The notes beneath the pieces were generated by a model that saw only the letters and a program-made list of their open reading frames with translations, had not been told where the DNA came from and did not search any database. Positions 23,971 through 39,031 of a stretch of DNA of 64,000 nucleotides are shown here, in pieces. Origin of the DNA: Paenibacillus sp. FSL R5-0341 (lineage in GTDB: Bacteria; Bacillota; Bacilli; Paenibacillales; Paenibacillaceae); assembly GCF_037975235.1 (NCBI RefSeq), contig NZ_CP150241.1, positions 186,001-250,000 of the forward strand, given 5' to 3'. Both the position numbers and the translations under genes were made by a program. Every line of letters starts with the position of its first letter. Positions within the stretch are counted from its first letter, which is position 1.

Positions 23971-24168
23971 ATGTTTGAAAATCGAGAACAGCTCCAAGAA
24001 ATTTTGAAAAAAGCAAATCAATATGCACGGAAACAAGCTAAAGAATCAGGTGCCTCTATCTATTATATAAAGAATAACAAACGCGTTCGTGAGGATGCTG
24101 AAGGCAATAAATTTGAAATTATTTTTGATGCTACTGGAAAACGGCAGGAGTTTGAGTATCATGAGTGA
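23971..24168 (+). CDS. Small partner (likely antitoxin) of zeta-like toxin
   Basis: This 65-residue, highly charged protein starts with a helix (FENREQLQEILKKANQYARKQAKES), followed by a beta hairpin (SIYYIKNNKRVREDAEGNKFEIIFD). It overlaps the next gene by 8 nt (ATGAGTGA), the usual sign of a coupled toxin-antitoxin pair with the antitoxin first. A GGGGGA ribosome site stands about 8 nt upstream. No family name is recognised; the antitoxin role is inferred from position and size. Confidence 0.65.
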   Translation: MFENREQLQEILKKANQYARKQAKESGASIYYIKNNKRVREDAEGNKFEIIFDATGKRQEFEYHE

Positions 24169-24733
24169 AACCAAACCAGTCATGACTGTGTTTGCTGGAA
24201 CCAATGGAGCAGGGAAAAGTACACTCAGCATGCAAATGAAAGAGTGGCTTGGTGAACTGGTTGATCCTGATCAGATTGCCAGAGAGTTGAAGCCAGAGAA
24301 TCCGCGCAGTGCTGACCTGTCTGCTGGCAGGGAAGCTGTGAAAAGAATCCGATCTCTGATTAAAAGTGGTGTAAACTTCGCTATTGAAACGACATTGTCC
24401 GGATCATTTGTTTTAAAACATATGGAAATAGCAAAAGAAAACAGTTACGAAATTTTTGTATACTATATCGGCCTTGAGGATGTCCAAATGCATATAGATC
24501 GTGTAGCCTCACGTGTTGAACAAGGTGGGCATTGGATTGCAGAAGAAGATATTCGTTATCGATATGGTGAGTCATTGAAGAACCTTAAACCGGCTCTAGC
24601 TATCGCAGATCAGGTTATCATTATTGATAATACATACGAGCCTTTAATTGTTGCGGAAATCATACAGAGTGATTTGATCTATTGTGTTGAGTCCATACCT
24701 GCTTGGGCCAATCCTGTTCTTAAGGATTACTGA
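24161..24733 (+). CDS. Zeta-toxin-family kinase (COG4185-like)
   Basis: This 190-residue P-loop protein has Walker A GTNGAGKST (residues 13-21), then LVDPDQIARELKPENP, the GREAVKRIRSLIKSGVNFAIETTLSG segment typical of zeta/COG4185 kinases, and RVASRVEQGGHWIAEEDIRYRY. Zeta toxins phosphorylate UDP-N-acetylglucosamine and so block cell-wall synthesis; COG4185 members are related, with less-known substrates. The ATG at 24161 lies within the end of the partner gene. The stop abuts the third ssrA-end copy, which puts this pair at the right edge of the island array and suggests an addiction role. Confidence 0.85.
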   Translation: MSETKPVMTVFAGTNGAGKSTLSMQMKEWLGELVDPDQIARELKPENPRSADLSAGREAVKRIRSLIKSGVNFAIETTLSGSFVLKHMEIAKENSYEIFVYYIGLEDVQMHIDRVASRVEQGGHWIAEEDIRYRYGESLKNLKPALAIADQVIIIDNTYEPLIVAEIIQSDLIYCVESIPAWANPVLKDY

Positions 24734-27559: not shown

Positions 27560-29479
27560 ATGGATTGGGAAGCCCATATCGAAAGGTGGAGCCGAACTGC
27601 CGTTAGATTGCTGGATATTCGGCATTATCGTGCGGAGCATGGAACGGTTCCTGATCACTATGTGGCGCATACGAACTTTTTCTTAATCACTACTCATGGA
27701 GAGGCTAGGGTGAGCATATCGGGCAAGGTCTACCAGACCCGTTCATCTTACATATTACATGGGGGAGCAGATGCTGAGCTGAGTATTGTGCCGCTGGGTC
27801 AGGACTTTGCCTGTTATCTGATTTTATATACAGCCGAGTGTCTATCGCCGGAGGAACGGAAGAGCTTCCAGGTGACGTATGCGTTTGCTCCGTATGCAGT
27901 ACTCCCTGTTCAGGAAAAGTGTGAATCTATGAACCGTTTGTGGCAAGAACCCGCTTCCATAGACAAGCTACAGGCGCAGTCGGTCTTTCTTCCATTGGTG
28001 TACGAGATCATGCGGCAACAGATCCAGACATTGGCCAAAAAGGAAAGCAGCAGACCCAACATCGTCACTGAGGCAATCCACTATATTCACGATCACTATA
28101 GCGAGCCGATTACAGCCGAGGAACTAGCCAAGAGATACCATTGCAGCGCCAGCTATTTATCCCGTTTGTTCAAAAACCAGATTGGACTAGGACCCATTGA
28201 ATATCTCATTCATGTGCGCGTTCACAGATCAAAGCAGTACCTTCTAAAGTCCGAGGCACGTATCCAGGAAATCGCGAGCAACGTAGGTTATGCAGATGTG
28301 TATTATTTCAGTCGCTTGTTCAAAAAGCATACCGGATTATCGCCACTTCAGTTTCGTGCGGAACATCGGCAACAGATCCAGGTTCAGTATAATCCATTAC
28401 GCGGGTTAGAATCGTCTATTGTAACCCCTAACTCCGGTTCTCATAATGAGAATGAGACTTATTATCAACGGATTAGGGAAGGGGACACATCCATGTTTAG
28501 ATTTTCACGACCGGCCTTTGGGGCGATGATGTTATTATGTACATCCTTGCTTCTAAGTGCATGCCAGACAAGCAGTACTCCAGGAGCAGCGGCTTCCCAG
28601 CCAGCTTCATCAGATACGACTACTGCTGTAACTACAGACAGCGTAGCTACGGAAACGCGGATGTATAAGCATCTGAAAGGCGAAGCCGAAATTCCTGTGA
28701 ATCCACAGCGAATTGTCAGCTTCTATCACTTGGGTGAGTTAATGGCGCTTGGGGTGAAGCCAGTTGGCACAACGACATTTATTTTAGATAATCCACTTAT
28801 AAGTGATACTTCCGGTATTTCAGATGTGGGTGTTCCGCCAGATGCGGAGAAAATTCTGTCACTGGAGCCAGATCTGATTGTTACAACGGCAGCATTTGCG
28901 GAGGCTGTGGAAGGCGGGTATGATGCACTGAGTCAGATTGCTCCAACCATTGTTGTCGAGCAGTACAACGACCCGATTAAAGATGTGGAGATGTTTGGTG
29001 ATATTCTTGGGAAACAAGAGGAAGCACGGCTATGGAACGAGCAATTCACGGCTAAAATCGCGGAGTATAAAGATAAGATTAGCCCTTATGTAGGTTCCGA
29101 TGAGACGTTCTCCATATTAAATGTGCGTCCGGATGCACTTTTTGTATACGGGGATACCAATATGGGAGGCAATATCATCTACAAGTACCTCGGGTTGAAG
29201 CCAGCCGCCAAGGTAGAGACAGACGTGATCAAAGGTGAGACGTGGGAAATTTCTTCTGAGGTGATTCCTGACTTTATTGGTGACCGGTTATTCCTTGCTG
29301 TCAATGACGGGGCGGAGGATAAACTCAAGGATGTACAGAAACTGATTGAGCAATCGCCAGCAGGGAAAGCGAATAAGGTCTACAATATTGATTTTGACGA
29401 GTTTCTGCTCAGTGACCCCATTTCGGTAGAGCAACAGCTGGACATCATTGTTGATATACTGGTCGGAAACAACGAATAG
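27560..29479 (+). CDS. AraC-type regulator fused in frame to a siderophore-type binding lipoprotein
   Basis: A single 639-residue frame has two parts. Residues 1-311 are an AraC regulator: an N-terminal sensing region and two HTHs at about 170-275 (EPITAEELAKRYHCSASYLSRLFK, ARIQEIASNVGYADVYYFSRLFKKHTG). Residues 312-639 are a complete lipoprotein precursor: MFRFSRP, a hydrophobic stretch, lipobox LLLSAC with Cys335, a Ser/Thr linker, then a class III iron-complex binding domain (NPQRIVSFYHLGELMALGVKPVG, SLEPDLIVT, ...). B. subtilis Btr has the same domain pair without a signal sequence. The ATG at 28493 has its own AGGGAAGGGG ribosome site 8 nt upstream. The locus may therefore make a membrane-spanning sensor-regulator, a separate lipoprotein, or both. 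No permease genes are adjacent. Confidence 0.88.
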   Translation: MDWEAHIERWSRTAVRLLDIRHYRAEHGTVPDHYVAHTNFFLITTHGEARVSISGKVYQTRSSYILHGGADAELSIVPLGQDFACYLILYTAECLSPEERKSFQVTYAFAPYAVLPVQEKCESMNRLWQEPASIDKLQAQSVFLPLVYEIMRQQIQTLAKKESSRPNIVTEAIHYIHDHYSEPITAEELAKRYHCSASYLSRLFKNQIGLGPIEYLIHVRVHRSKQYLLKSEARIQEIASNVGYADVYYFSRLFKKHTGLSPLQFRAEHRQQIQVQYNPLRGLESSIVTPNSGSHNENETYYQRIREGDTSMFRFSRPAFGAMMLLCTSLLLSACQTSSTPGAAASQPASSDTTTAVTTDSVATETRMYKHLKGEAEIPVNPQRIVSFYHLGELMALGVKPVGTTTFILDNPLISDTSGISDVGVPPDAEKILSLEPDLIVTTAAFAEAVEGGYDALSQIAPTIVVEQYNDPIKDVEMFGDILGKQEEARLWNEQFTAKIAEYKDKISPYVGSDETFSILNVRPDALFVYGDTNMGGNIIYKYLGLKPAAKVETDVIKGETWEISSEVIPDFIGDRLFLAVNDGAEDKLKDVQKLIEQSPAGKANKVYNIDFDEFLLSDPISVEQQLDIIVDILVGNNE

Positions 29480-35340: not shown

Positions 35341-36630
35341 ATGAGTATACATTTAGAAGATTTATGTAATGATTATCATGAGAATAAAATTGTTCCTCTC
35401 ATAGGCGCAGGGCTATCTATGCCTTTTAATATACCCAATTGGGGAAACTTAATAAGAGAAATAACTGCAAAGTATGCTGTAGGTGATTCATCTTTTGTAA
35501 AGTTGGCTGTAGAAAAGGATTTGGAGAAATATGATTACTGGCAAGCAATCGATATTTTAAAAAGATATACAACAGTTCAAGAAGAAGACATTCAAGAATA
35601 TATAGCAACAACGATACAGAGTAAAAACAAAAGAATTGATGATGATCTACTTCATAATTATTTAGATTTAAAAGAAATGAATTTCAATCTTTTCTTGACT
35701 ACAAATTATGAAAGTATACTTCACAAATATTTAGATTGCGAATTAGATCCAATTTTACTGAGAGATATAAACTTTAATACACAAAATTTGTTTGATCAAA
35801 AAAGGGTTTGTCAGTTACATGGTACGATTTCCAATTCCGGAACCATTGTCATTAGTAAAGAAAGCTACCAACAGCTTTATAGTGATAAGAAGTATGAGAA
35901 TATTTTGAAATTAGTAACAGGTACTAGGAAGATACTTTTTATGGGTTTCTCTTTTGATGATCAGTTTATAAGAACACTTATAAAAGAACACAAAGATTTT
36001 TTTAGTACAAAACATTATATAATATTAGCCGATCCAAGTTCTGAAAAAATTAGAGAGCTTAGAGAGGAATTTGGCCTACTTACTATATCCTATAGCACAA
36101 AAGAATTTACTCATGCTGAAGGTATAAGAGCGATTTTAGAGAAGATGAAGGGAAAAACTTCTAGCGTAATTGGAAAAGATAAGGATACAGCATTACCTAT
36201 TTCTAAAATTGTAGTCGGTGCAGGTATTGAAGATCTTCAAAAAGATGTGGCTAATAATCTTTTTTATAAAAAGTTAAAGATTGAACAGATTGATGATTCT
36301 TTAATTGAACTTAGTTCTGCATTTTATGTAGCCTCAGAAGAGTATATTCGCGAATTGAAAAGAGCTGCCATTCCGTTAAATATAATAGATATGATGCTTA
36401 GAAAAGTTTTTATAAAGTACAAAGAAAGATACGCAGATACTTATAAAGAGTATGGTAATAGTGAGGAGTTTTTAAAAATTGTACACTCCAGTTTGAAAAA
36501 CTTAGACTACGGAAGGTTGAAACAATTATTAAAAGACAATTTGGCAGATGAGGATGAGATCAGAGGCTTGATTCATCTTTTAGCAGAAGATGAAAAGTTG
36601 GAGGTATGGTGGGGAGGAAATAGATGTTAA
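35341..36630 (+). CDS. SIR2-domain effector of a three-gene ABC conflict system
   Basis: The product has 429 residues. Residues of about 10-265 form a SIR2 (NAD-binding, sirtuin-like) domain: GAGLS at 22-26, LTTNYE at 119-124, the catalytic-type His160-Gly161, and a late GFSFDDQFIRTLI segment. In prokaryotic immunity such domains often hydrolyse NAD to kill or arrest infected cells. Residues of about 280-429 are a helical region (VASEEYIRELKRAAIPLNIIDMMLRKVF) consistent with the shared C-terminal domain of ABC-three-component effectors. AT-rich codon use contrasts with the flanking genes. AGAGGGG precedes the ATG. A TATAAT at 35281-35286 may be the -10. The stop overlaps the next gene's start. 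Confidence 0.8.
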   Translation: MSIHLEDLCNDYHENKIVPLIGAGLSMPFNIPNWGNLIREITAKYAVGDSSFVKLAVEKDLEKYDYWQAIDILKRYTTVQEEDIQEYIATTIQSKNKRIDDDLLHNYLDLKEMNFNLFLTTNYESILHKYLDCELDPILLRDINFNTQNLFDQKRVCQLHGTISNSGTIVISKESYQQLYSDKKYENILKLVTGTRKILFMGFSFDDQFIRTLIKEHKDFFSTKHYIILADPSSEKIRELREEFGLLTISYSTKEFTHAEGIRAILEKMKGKTSSVIGKDKDTALPISKIVVGAGIEDLQKDVANNLFYKKLKIEQIDDSLIELSSAFYVASEEYIRELKRAAIPLNIIDMMLRKVFIKYKERYADTYKEYGNSEEFLKIVHSSLKNLDYGRLKQLLKDNLADEDEIRGLIHLLAEDEKLEVWWGGNRC

Positions 36631-37100
36631 GGGATAGGGATGGGTACTTGTCGGTTCCGTCATCTATTGAATTACTTTTTGAAAATGAAAAATTAGAATT
36701 AATGAAAGTACTTTGTTTGATTAGTTCTATGTCATCAAAAAGAAGAAAATATTTATCAGTTTCAGAGATTGTGTTTTATTATGCGATTGTAAATTTTAAC
36801 CTTATCACAATATTTGAAGATGTAAATATAACTAGTTCCCCCAATCAATTTTTTCGTTTCCAATCAAGGATTAGTAATATCATAATTCGAATGGAAAATT
36901 TAAATTTTATCGAATTAAAAGCAACTTTATCGACAAAGAAAGATGATATTAAAATTAGAATTTCAAGCAGTGGAATGAAATTCTATGAAGAGCACAACTC
37001 AGTTTTTTTTCAGGAGTTGCAAGAAAGGTACGTATCAAGTTTCGAGAGGGTTAATTATACTGCTAAAAATTTAAAAAGATTAAAGGAGGGTAAGGCTTGA
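36624..37100 (+). CDS. Middle component of the ABC conflict system
   Basis: This 158-residue cytoplasmic protein is predicted to be mostly helical with a winged-helix-like core (KLELMKVLCLISSM, YLSVSEIVFYYAIVNF, FRFQSRISNIIIRMENLNFIELKAT, DIKIRISSSGMKFYEEH). The start ATG overlaps the effector stop (ATGTTAA), and the stop overlaps the ATPase start (TTGA). All three proteins are therefore translationally coupled and probably made in fixed ratio. I assign it as the small middle component by position and size; the sequence alone gives no family name. Confidence 0.7.
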   Translation: MLRDRDGYLSVPSSIELLFENEKLELMKVLCLISSMSSKRRKYLSVSEIVFYYAIVNFNLITIFEDVNITSSPNQFFRFQSRISNIIIRMENLNFIELKATLSTKKDDIKIRISSSGMKFYEEHNSVFFQELQERYVSSFERVNYTAKNLKRLKEGKA

Positions 37101-39031
37101 GTCAGATAATATTAAGAAGATTAATTTTGCAAGGTATTTCTTTTAGAAGAACTATCGAATTCAATAAGGGCCTTACAATCATTAGCGGTGAAAAGACTTC
37201 AGGAAAATCATTAATATTAAGCTTGATTGATTATTGCTTAGGAAAAAGCGAAAAAATTGATCTAACTGTTCAAAAAGAATTGAATACTTATTGTGATCAA
37301 GTTTATCTTGAACTATTGATTAGTGACGAAATTATTACTCTTAATAGGGATTTGAAAAAAAATTTCGATAAGATAAGAATGTATTACTGTCCATTCAATA
37401 AAATAGAAGAATTCACTCCGAAAATTGTAATCATCAAAGAAGCAATGAACATTATCATGCAAAAATTAAGTATTAATGAGTACAAACTAATTAGACATAA
37501 ACAACACAGTACAGAAAAGGAAATTGAAGTAGTCTCTTTTAGAGACATATTTAGGTATGTGTACATACATCAACACAACCTAGGGACGGATAACTTTCTC
37601 GAAAATAACAGCGTTTTTAAAGCAAATAAAAATCCACATGCGTTTAAATTGATGTTTAACTTAATAGAAGTTGACAAAGATACATTAAATGAAAAAATAG
37701 TAGAGATTCAAAATCAAATTTCAGAAGCGAGAAAAGAGATAGTCGGTTTGATATCTTACCTAAGGGATCGGGATGCGGATGATCCTATAATGTTACAATT
37801 GAAGATCGATAGAGTAGAGAGAGAAATAGAAAATACAAAAAAAGAAAAGAAGGAAGTAGTTCAGAATAGTAAGTCTAATGAGAATAAAGAAAACCAGTTA
37901 TATATTAAACTGAAAAGAGATATAGAAGATATCTCAAATGAAATTTTTAATTTACGTAAAGAAGAGAAATCATTGAGTTTATCTATATCTTCAAAATTAC
38001 TTTTATTAGAAGAATATGAAGTAGAACTTGTTGAAATAAAAGAAACGTTAGAATTGAATTATAAGCTGATTATTGCTGATCAAACGCTTGAATGCCCTTT
38101 GTGTAACTCACAAATAACCCATACCCATACCAACTCATCATTAAATACTGGTGAAACAGAAATTGTTTTACAAAAGGCAAAAAAAGAGATTGAAGGTAAA
38201 AAAATTCTAGTTGCAGGTTTAATAGAGACTGAAAAAAAGAAAACAGAACAACTAAATTATGAAATAAGCAATCTTAATCAAAGACGTGAAATTTTTGATG
38301 AAGCAATTAAAGTTTTTAGCAAAAAAACAGAAGTTCCCTTCCTTTCTCAACTAGAAACTTTAAACAGCATGATTAATCGACTGACAAAAGATCAAGAAAT
38401 TCTTAGAGAAAGCATGAGAATCTACCATAAAATTGAGGAAAAAGAATCTCTTATTATTGCGCTAGGGTTAGAAGAAGAAAAATTAAAGGGCAGACTATCT
38501 GCCTTACAAGTAAAAGGTATAGAAAAAGATGAGATTCTTAATTTACTTGATATAGAGTACCGAAAATTTATGAAAAGATTAAAATATGATCCTCTTGATG
38601 AAACGTATATTCATAGAGAAAAATTTATCCCTTATTATAATGGAGCCAGTGTATATTCTCATGAAAGTGGAGGATTGCTAGAAAGCATGCAGTTATCGTA
38701 TCTCGGCGCTATTCTCAAAAGCAAGGAAGCTGGTTATGCTAAAGGTCATCCAGGTTTATTAATGTTAGATTCAATTAGTAAGTATGTAGGGACTCTGAAG
38801 AAAGATAGCAAGGAATCACATGTTGTCGAAGGGTCAACAAAAAATCAAGTTAGAGACCCAGAAGTTTATGAAGAGTTTTATAAAATTTTAGTTGAACTAG
38901 GCAATTACCATCAAATAATTCTTGTTGAGAATACGCCCCCGACTCAATATGATAGGGCTTATACTAAATATACTTTTTTCAATGGGAAAAATGGATTAAT
39001 AGATGAAGAAGCAAATGAAATAAAAGAATAG
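37097..39031 (+). CDS. SMC/Rad50-like ABC ATPase with zinc hook (DUF3732-like)
   Basis: This 644-residue ATPase has Walker A GEKTSGKS (residues 31-38), two long coiled-coil arms (about 195-330 and 355-470), a CPLC zinc-hook motif at residues 333-336 between them, the ABC signature ESGGLLESMQLSYLGA near 523, and Walker B GLLMLDS with Asp558. The residue after Asp558 is Ser, not the usual catalytic Glu, so ATP hydrolysis may be slow or absent. The layout is that of RecN/Rad50-like sensors used in ABC-three-component systems. The start is TTG 37097, 6 nt after AAAGGAGGG. A terminator follows at 39050. Confidence 0.85.
   Translation: MSQIILRRLILQGISFRRTIEFNKGLTIISGEKTSGKSLILSLIDYCLGKSEKIDLTVQKELNTYCDQVYLELLISDEIITLNRDLKKNFDKIRMYYCPFNKIEEFTPKIVIIKEAMNIIMQKLSINEYKLIRHKQHSTEKEIEVVSFRDIFRYVYIHQHNLGTDNFLENNSVFKANKNPHAFKLMFNLIEVDKDTLNEKIVEIQNQISEARKEIVGLISYLRDRDADDPIMLQLKIDRVEREIENTKKEKKEVVQNSKSNENKENQLYIKLKRDIEDISNEIFNLRKEEKSLSLSISSKLLLLEEYEVELVEIKETLELNYKLIIADQTLECPLCNSQITHTHTNSSLNTGETEIVLQKAKKEIEGKKILVAGLIETEKKKTEQLNYEISNLNQRREIFDEAIKVFSKKTEVPFLSQLETLNSMINRLTKDQEILRESMRIYHKIEEKESLIIALGLEEEKLKGRLSALQVKGIEKDEILNLLDIEYRKFMKRLKYDPLDETYIHREKFIPYYNGASVYSHESGGLLESMQLSYLGAILKSKEAGYAKGHPGLLMLDSISKYVGTLKKDSKESHVVEGSTKNQVRDPEVYEEFYKILVELGNYHQIILVENTPPTQYDRAYTKYTFFNGKNGLIDEEANEIKE

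Follow-up and report, generated by a model that had tools for sequence, protein, structure and literature searches.

A Paenibacillus AraC-type regulator gene that probably also encodes a siderophore-binding lipoprotein behind a putative Fur-controlled internal promoter

A 639-aa frame of Paenibacillus sp. FSL R5-0341 raises the question of why the gene of an AraC-type regulator should run without interruption into a complete lipoprotein precursor, and how many proteins such a gene would specify. The frame lies in the window, the 64,000-nt stretch of contig NZ_CP150241.1 analyzed here. Btr of Bacillus subtilis is a cytoplasmic protein that is not known to carry a signal peptide. In this protein, also named YbbB, an AraC regulator is joined to a FeuA-like siderophore-binding-protein domain, according to the available portion of PMC9609785. 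The window protein likewise combines an AraC regulator with a siderophore-binding domain, and it differs from Btr in having a lipoprotein signal (residues 312-335), an internal start, and an internal Fur-like operator. As developed below, the arrangement is probably that of one gene with two products, namely a lipoprotein for transport that is repressed by iron and a longer regulator resembling Btr.

A single open frame and its retention in relatives

The initial annotation had described a frame without any stop between the AraC part and the lipoprotein precursor, and the frame is indeed open over its whole length (Table 1). The positions it gave for the internal ATG (residue 312), for AGGGAAGGGG located 8 nt upstream, and for lipobox Cys335 are correct as well. 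Pfam matches of the window protein lie above the curated cut-offs, both for HTH_18 at residues 189-267 (8.6e-23; HTH_18 and HTH_AraC reach 80.9 and 72.4 bits, against 33.6 and 26.6) and for Peripla_BP_2 at residues 427-612 (1.8e-11; 44.3 bits, against 27.5). Among solved structures, the second part is best matched by proteins annotated as FhuD and FtsB, which bind iron-hydroxamates. An assignment of the protein as a Btr orthologue was rejected, the score against NF049932 (NCBIfam) being 94 bits for a curated cut-off of 900, over residues 21-275 only.

Table 1. Predicted features of the gene, in positions of the window
Feature	Position	Strand	Basis
Predicted long product: AraC regulator, signal/anchor segment, siderophore-type binding domain	27560..29479	+	open 639-aa frame, domains
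AraC part, residues 1-267 (HTH_18 189-267)	27560..28360	+	Pfam
Promoter-like hexamers TTGTAA-17-CATAAT, 9/12, consensus match only	28419..28447	+	scan
Fur-like operator TGAGACTTATTATCA, 12/15	28453..28467	+	conserved in relatives
Putative internal ribosome site AGGGAAGGGG	28475..28484	+	
Predicted short product: lipoprotein precursor, 328 aa, from ATG 28493 (Met312)	28493..29479	+	
Lipoprotein signal, Met312 to lipobox Cys335 (LSAC; Cys at 28562-28564)	28493..28564	+	
Siderophore-type binding domain, about residues 363-637	28646..29470	+	Pfam; solved relatives
Glu430, presumed permease contact	28847..28849	+	conserved in membrane-type fusions and free lipoproteins
Glu567, presumed permease contact	29258..29260	+	conserved in membrane-type fusions and free lipoproteins

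We then compared relatives for retention of the frame, a check that the initial annotation had proposed. Orthologues of the window gene (at least 69% identity) were found in 16 of the 75 genomes searched within the genus. The linker is open in all 16 and the gene is whole in 13, the remaining three having one TAG in the AraC part (G039), one frame change in each domain (G034), or no end of the binding domain (G004). The copy of strain Heshi-A3 is 97% identical, the host being close to P. amylolyticus. Given that full-length queries favour fused genes, the search was repeated with the AraC part alone, in 59 genomes, 26 of which gave matches, with at most the best 42 candidates scored. Among the matches listed, frames of at least 600 aa were kept in 64 of 69 at E<=1e-64, the 64 including a long G000 fusion that lacks a signal and what is likely its counterpart in G001. 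The five shorter matches comprise three copies from the genome of the window itself, with frames of 370, 430, and 549 aa, the latter two having an open linker and a break inside the binding domain, as well as a G001 copy (frame of 280 aa) and a 575-aa G124 fusion without a signal peptide. The gene is thus broken in four of these five, suggesting that some copies are decaying.

Sequencing error or chance was rejected as the origin of the frame, since both the frame and its elements recur in relatives. A further alternative is that these are two ordinary neighbouring genes without an intervening stop, the long chain being a read-through product that has no job. Stops between the parts, the pattern that the initial annotation associated with simple neighbouring genes, exist among relatives only as three exceptions: L172 and L173 are unfused, with stops between the parts (accompanied by a Fur-like site in L172; none was seen in L173), and in L163 a change of frame within the linker makes the AraC part end at the binding-protein start. 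These counterparts, together with L004, in which the whole short product is kept behind a stop in the AraC part, are in agreement with such a reading. It is nevertheless very improbable in our view, given that the long frame is kept in the AraC-only matches although the +1 and +2 frames of the linker hold stops in 53 and 74, respectively, of 74 measured linkers.

For the comparisons across fusions, sequences were taken from searches of the strain's own genome, the genus, the family, and the class, as well as from fetched stretches; two of these searches scored at most 10 and at most 4 candidates per genome, with part of the matches listed. A total of 139 loci entered; three of them (L163, L172, and L173) fell short of the required length and were inspected manually. 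With L004 left out, 135 fusions were scored, and 104 were kept after reduction by 4-mer similarity. The L060 fusion is of the membrane type. In a tree of the AraC parts, the node uniting the membrane-type rows had a weak support of 0.49, and four signal-less fusions fell inside it. A protein search of plasmid records gave 1,780 matching records, none with a place covering at least 80% of the query. Two membrane-type fusions per neighbourhood were observed at L204, L206, L209, L212, and L222; at L212 and L222 they stand directly in tandem on one strand.

Promoter-like and Fur-like elements in the linker

In the window gene, promoter-like hexamers, a Fur-like operator, AGGGAAGGGG, and the internal ATG follow one another in the linker (Table 1); scored with a 19-letter consensus, the Fur-like site matches at 15/19 (28448-28466). 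Given that the whole window contains 9 Fur-like matches with at most three mismatches for 4.0 expected, the lone site is not significant by itself, and the evidence for a Fur-like operator lies in its conservation and position. Among the 104 non-redundant fusions, 96 carry a Fur-like 15-mer (at least 11/15) in the 55 nt upstream of the internal start, compared with 0.65% of 17,968 control windows taken from other parts of these genes. The count of 96 is lowered by a few script-chosen starts that are probably wrong (e.g., L120 and L135). Within 80 nt, a span that has no control of its own, a 15-mer of 11-15/15 precedes the internal start in all 104. Counts across fusions are not independent events, because the sequences are homologous.

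Codons were also tested at fixed positions, thereby avoiding picking by match, and showed a bias toward the letters of a Fur box. Values before the internal start exceeded those in the rest of the genes for GAT (0.99 versus 0.67), CAA (0.90 versus 0.44), AAT (0.90 versus 0.62), TAT (0.91 versus 0.68), and CAT (0.90 versus 0.74). Likewise, when the window gene was compared among 13 orthologues, identity at the synonymous choice was 0.97 for the codons of residues 296-304 and 0.85 for those of residues 305-312, compared with 0.61-0.67 in the AraC and binding domains; the adjoining linker stretches were also somewhat raised (0.74-0.82). The ribosome-site score averaged 5.13 at the 104 internal starts and 3.62 at 1,505 other in-frame ATGs, and the best promoter hexamers before the internal start averaged 8.48, against 5.81 in 3,847 control windows, the AT-rich linker favouring promoter scores. 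At the protein level, an alignment of 10 rows, one of them sharing 71% identity with the window protein and eight sharing 30-35%, displays Y302, Q303, M312, L332, A334, and C335 as invariant or nearly so, Met312 being invariant; in the DNA, these residues correspond to a Fur-box half-site, the internal start, and the lipobox. The candidate operator also encodes the linker residues, in the one reading frame that is free of stops. No internal Fur-like site was found in five signal-less fusions of the strain's own genome (best 9-10/15 in 270 nt), these being the ones that the search pattern caught.

By sequence, the gene has a conserved Fur-like operator at a promoter-like element, as Fur-regulated genes do, and the short product most likely has an internal, iron-repressed promoter of its own, with the Fur-like site as its operator. 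The initial annotation had proposed two products, a view that the sequences support well, and had derived the short one from internal initiation on the long message, which is probably not its sole source. Initiation at the internal ATG in the absence of a promoter is less likely, given the Fur-like sites and promoter hexamers that precede it. The layout recurs and looks selected, as judged from these comparisons.

We examined the breadth of this arrangement in 80 named loci, which include Paenibacillus, Cohnella, Brevibacillus, Lysinibacillus, and one Tissierellia MAG. A frame of at least 600 aa is present in 76, the other four being L225 (the SZ31 copy with a stop), L246, L257, and L275, and 69 of the 76 have a Fur-like site within 80 nt. 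A relative of the gene is also carried by Paenibacillus polymyxa ISL-58 (L272). No such site was found within that distance in seven loci, L276 and L295 from Paenibacillus and five others from Konateibacter, Tissierella, Scatolibacter (two), and Clostridium; in all seven, promoter-like hexamers spaced by 17 nt precede the internal start. The five non-Paenibacillus loci (L293, L298, L299, L301, and L302) harbor a GTTAG-N6-CTAAC palindrome ahead of the AraC start; their linkers contain a less strict version, which a pattern search recognized in four loci and visual inspection in the remaining one. Counts of the perfect palindrome in four of the genomes are 11, 32, 22, and 13, for 1, 5, 5, and 4 occurrences of a reversed control. 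It is only suggestive that the operator class may have been exchanged at both places in these five loci, with the layout unchanged. In L276 and L295, TTGGCT-17-TATACT is kept before the internal start, and the site upstream appears Fur-like by eye.

Regarding the long product, a Fur-like site (at least 12/15) occurs in a 240-nt span around the AraC start, a span without a control, in 62 of the 101 fusions whose upstream sequence was long enough. Around the AraC start of the window gene no Fur-like site was found (best 9/15), and its long product may therefore be made irrespective of the iron supply. According to the two-product model, a message from the upstream promoter would yield the long chain, composed of the AraC regulator, the signal/anchor segment, and the siderophore-binding domain, which would act as a one-component regulator sensing a ferric siderophore. 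When iron is scarce, Fur would leave the linker operator and the internal promoter would fire, and translation from ATG 28493 would then produce the binding domain alone, as a surface lipoprotein feeding a FecCD-type importer. Based on the open frame, the promoter-like and Fur-like elements, the ribosome site, the start, the lipobox, the glutamates, and their conservation, all of them present in the sequence, we infer the synthesis of both products, repression of the short one by Fur, and a role of the long one in regulating siderophore genes.

Transport features and the placement of the long chain

We take the positions of Glu430 and Glu567 to be the permease contacts of this fold. Both glutamates are present in all 102 scorable membrane-type fusions (102 of 104, the other two being truncated in that region), and in all 27 free lipoproteins, but in 2 of the 13 signal-less fusions that could be scored (14 taken, one unscorable), the signal-less and free-lipoprotein sets having been picked by similarity to the membrane-type set. 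The lipobox Cys is present in 103 of the 104 fusions. With its Peripla_BP_2 domain, Cys335, Glu430, and Glu567, the window protein has the features of a siderophore-binding lipoprotein; domain, lipobox, and glutamates are common to it and to the Peripla_BP_2 lipoproteins FhuD and FtsB, from which it differs in that its binding protein is encoded as the second half of a regulator gene. Two FecCD permease genes stand directly behind the fusion, on the same strand, in 5 of 26 neighbourhoods (L064, L212, L214, L219, and L220), with no separate binding protein in between; the L064 copy is itself broken late in the binding domain. No permease genes were found directly behind the fusion in the other 21, and no transporter adjoins the window gene, so that this copy would have to share a permease encoded elsewhere. 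The free lipoprotein feeding an importer that was initially envisaged is thus favoured by the glutamates and by the five FecCD neighbourhoods, and is weakened by the lack of a transporter beside the window gene; we consider the short product a likely, though not certain, lipoprotein of uptake. In the L113 fusion (G298), the lipobox Cys is lost (LLLGAHS) and the Fur-like site retained. An FAD-dependent reductase of one family, recognized by similarity to a frame of L061, lies in the neighbourhood of the fusion in 5 of 26 cases (L061, L063, L065, L208, and L212) and is perhaps a siderophore reductase.

The destination of the long chain is a separate matter. Since the short product by itself requires the signal and the lipobox, their conservation is uninformative on this point. 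We lean towards insertion of the long chain in the membrane, with the regulator inside and the binding domain outside, the chances of this being about even. The initial annotation had gone further, assuming a membrane-spanning, one-piece transcription sensor together with a free lipoprotein whose translation would begin internally on the long message. Three observations are consistent with this model: a simple uncalibrated sum without position weights rates the segment preceding the lipobox Cys as sufficiently hydrophobic to insert in 89 of 103 fusions; net charge in the fusions is higher before that segment than after it (mean of 1.39 versus -0.26); and the internal ribosome sites are good. 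However, the promoter-like hexamers and the Fur-like operator before the internal start make a separate message likelier, and the structure predicted for the 639-aa chain (mean pLDDT of 75.8, pTM of 0.44) is of low confidence at residues 275-362, so that we hold this combination to be tentative, with less than an even chance.

That the long chain is instead a cytoplasmic sensor like Btr appears somewhat unlikely. In its specific form, a Btr-like sensor of the imported ferric siderophore whose signal segment serves the short product alone, we consider this reading unlikely: signal-less fusions do occur in the same genomes, and the five that were scored lack the signal and the internal operator together, which is in line with it, whereas a chain with positive charges followed by an internal hydrophobic segment would be expected to go to the membrane. 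Cleavage of the long chain at Cys335 by signal peptidase II, leaving a membrane-tethered AraC part, seems quite unlikely. If the long chain does span the membrane, it might dock the permease outside while its AraC part is on the DNA, and the free protein made from the linker promoter would compete for the permease. We regard this reading as a whole as somewhat unlikely; were it to hold, the membrane-spanning form and the free protein would allow one gene to tune uptake and sensing against each other. ToxR and CadC are membrane one-component regulators with a DNA-binding part, one hydrophobic segment, and an outer sensor. The window protein would have the same order of parts if its long chain is inserted, and it differs from them by an AraC-type DNA-binding part, a lipobox, a transport-type sensor, and the nested short product.

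Published counterparts and other loci of the window

In the accessible text of PMC13293324, 229 of 6,023 Peripla_BP_2 genes carry another domain, which is HTH_18 in 98.7% of them, the same domain pair as in the window gene, and the number of such binding-protein genes relative to siderophore clusters is highest in Paenibacillus (ratio of 29.43). That text contains no mention of an internal Fur site, an internal start, or a dual product for the HTH_18 + Peripla_BP_2 genes. Btr is mentioned in passing in the available parts of PMC9609785 and PMC3616918, and those of PMC3896406 count among the Fur genes ybbB/btr and a Bacillus pumilus set made up of a regulator, a binding protein, and a permease. 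An internal promoter is not described in the accessible portions of these four papers, and the open-access literature, in the portions available and within the terms used, yielded no description of the nested layout. If the two-product model is right, many apparently plain AraC regulator genes of Paenibacillus, Cohnella, Brevibacillus, Lysinibacillus, and some Clostridia-type bacteria would also encode transport lipoproteins, siderophore receptors would possibly be undercounted, and their iron control would be hidden inside coding sequence. The gene would then offer a clean test of how one gene balances sensing against uptake, and would illustrate how the nucleotides of an operator can determine protein sequence.

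Two other loci of the window were noted. At 35341-39031 (+), an LmuA-like SIR2 protein (PADLOC PDLC03856, 9e-188) is followed by a 158-aa frame and by a 644-aa frame with a P-loop-like start, which together look like a Lamassu-type defence cassette. A lone zeta-toxin-like kinase (PF06414, 2.3e-7) is encoded at 24089-24733 (+).
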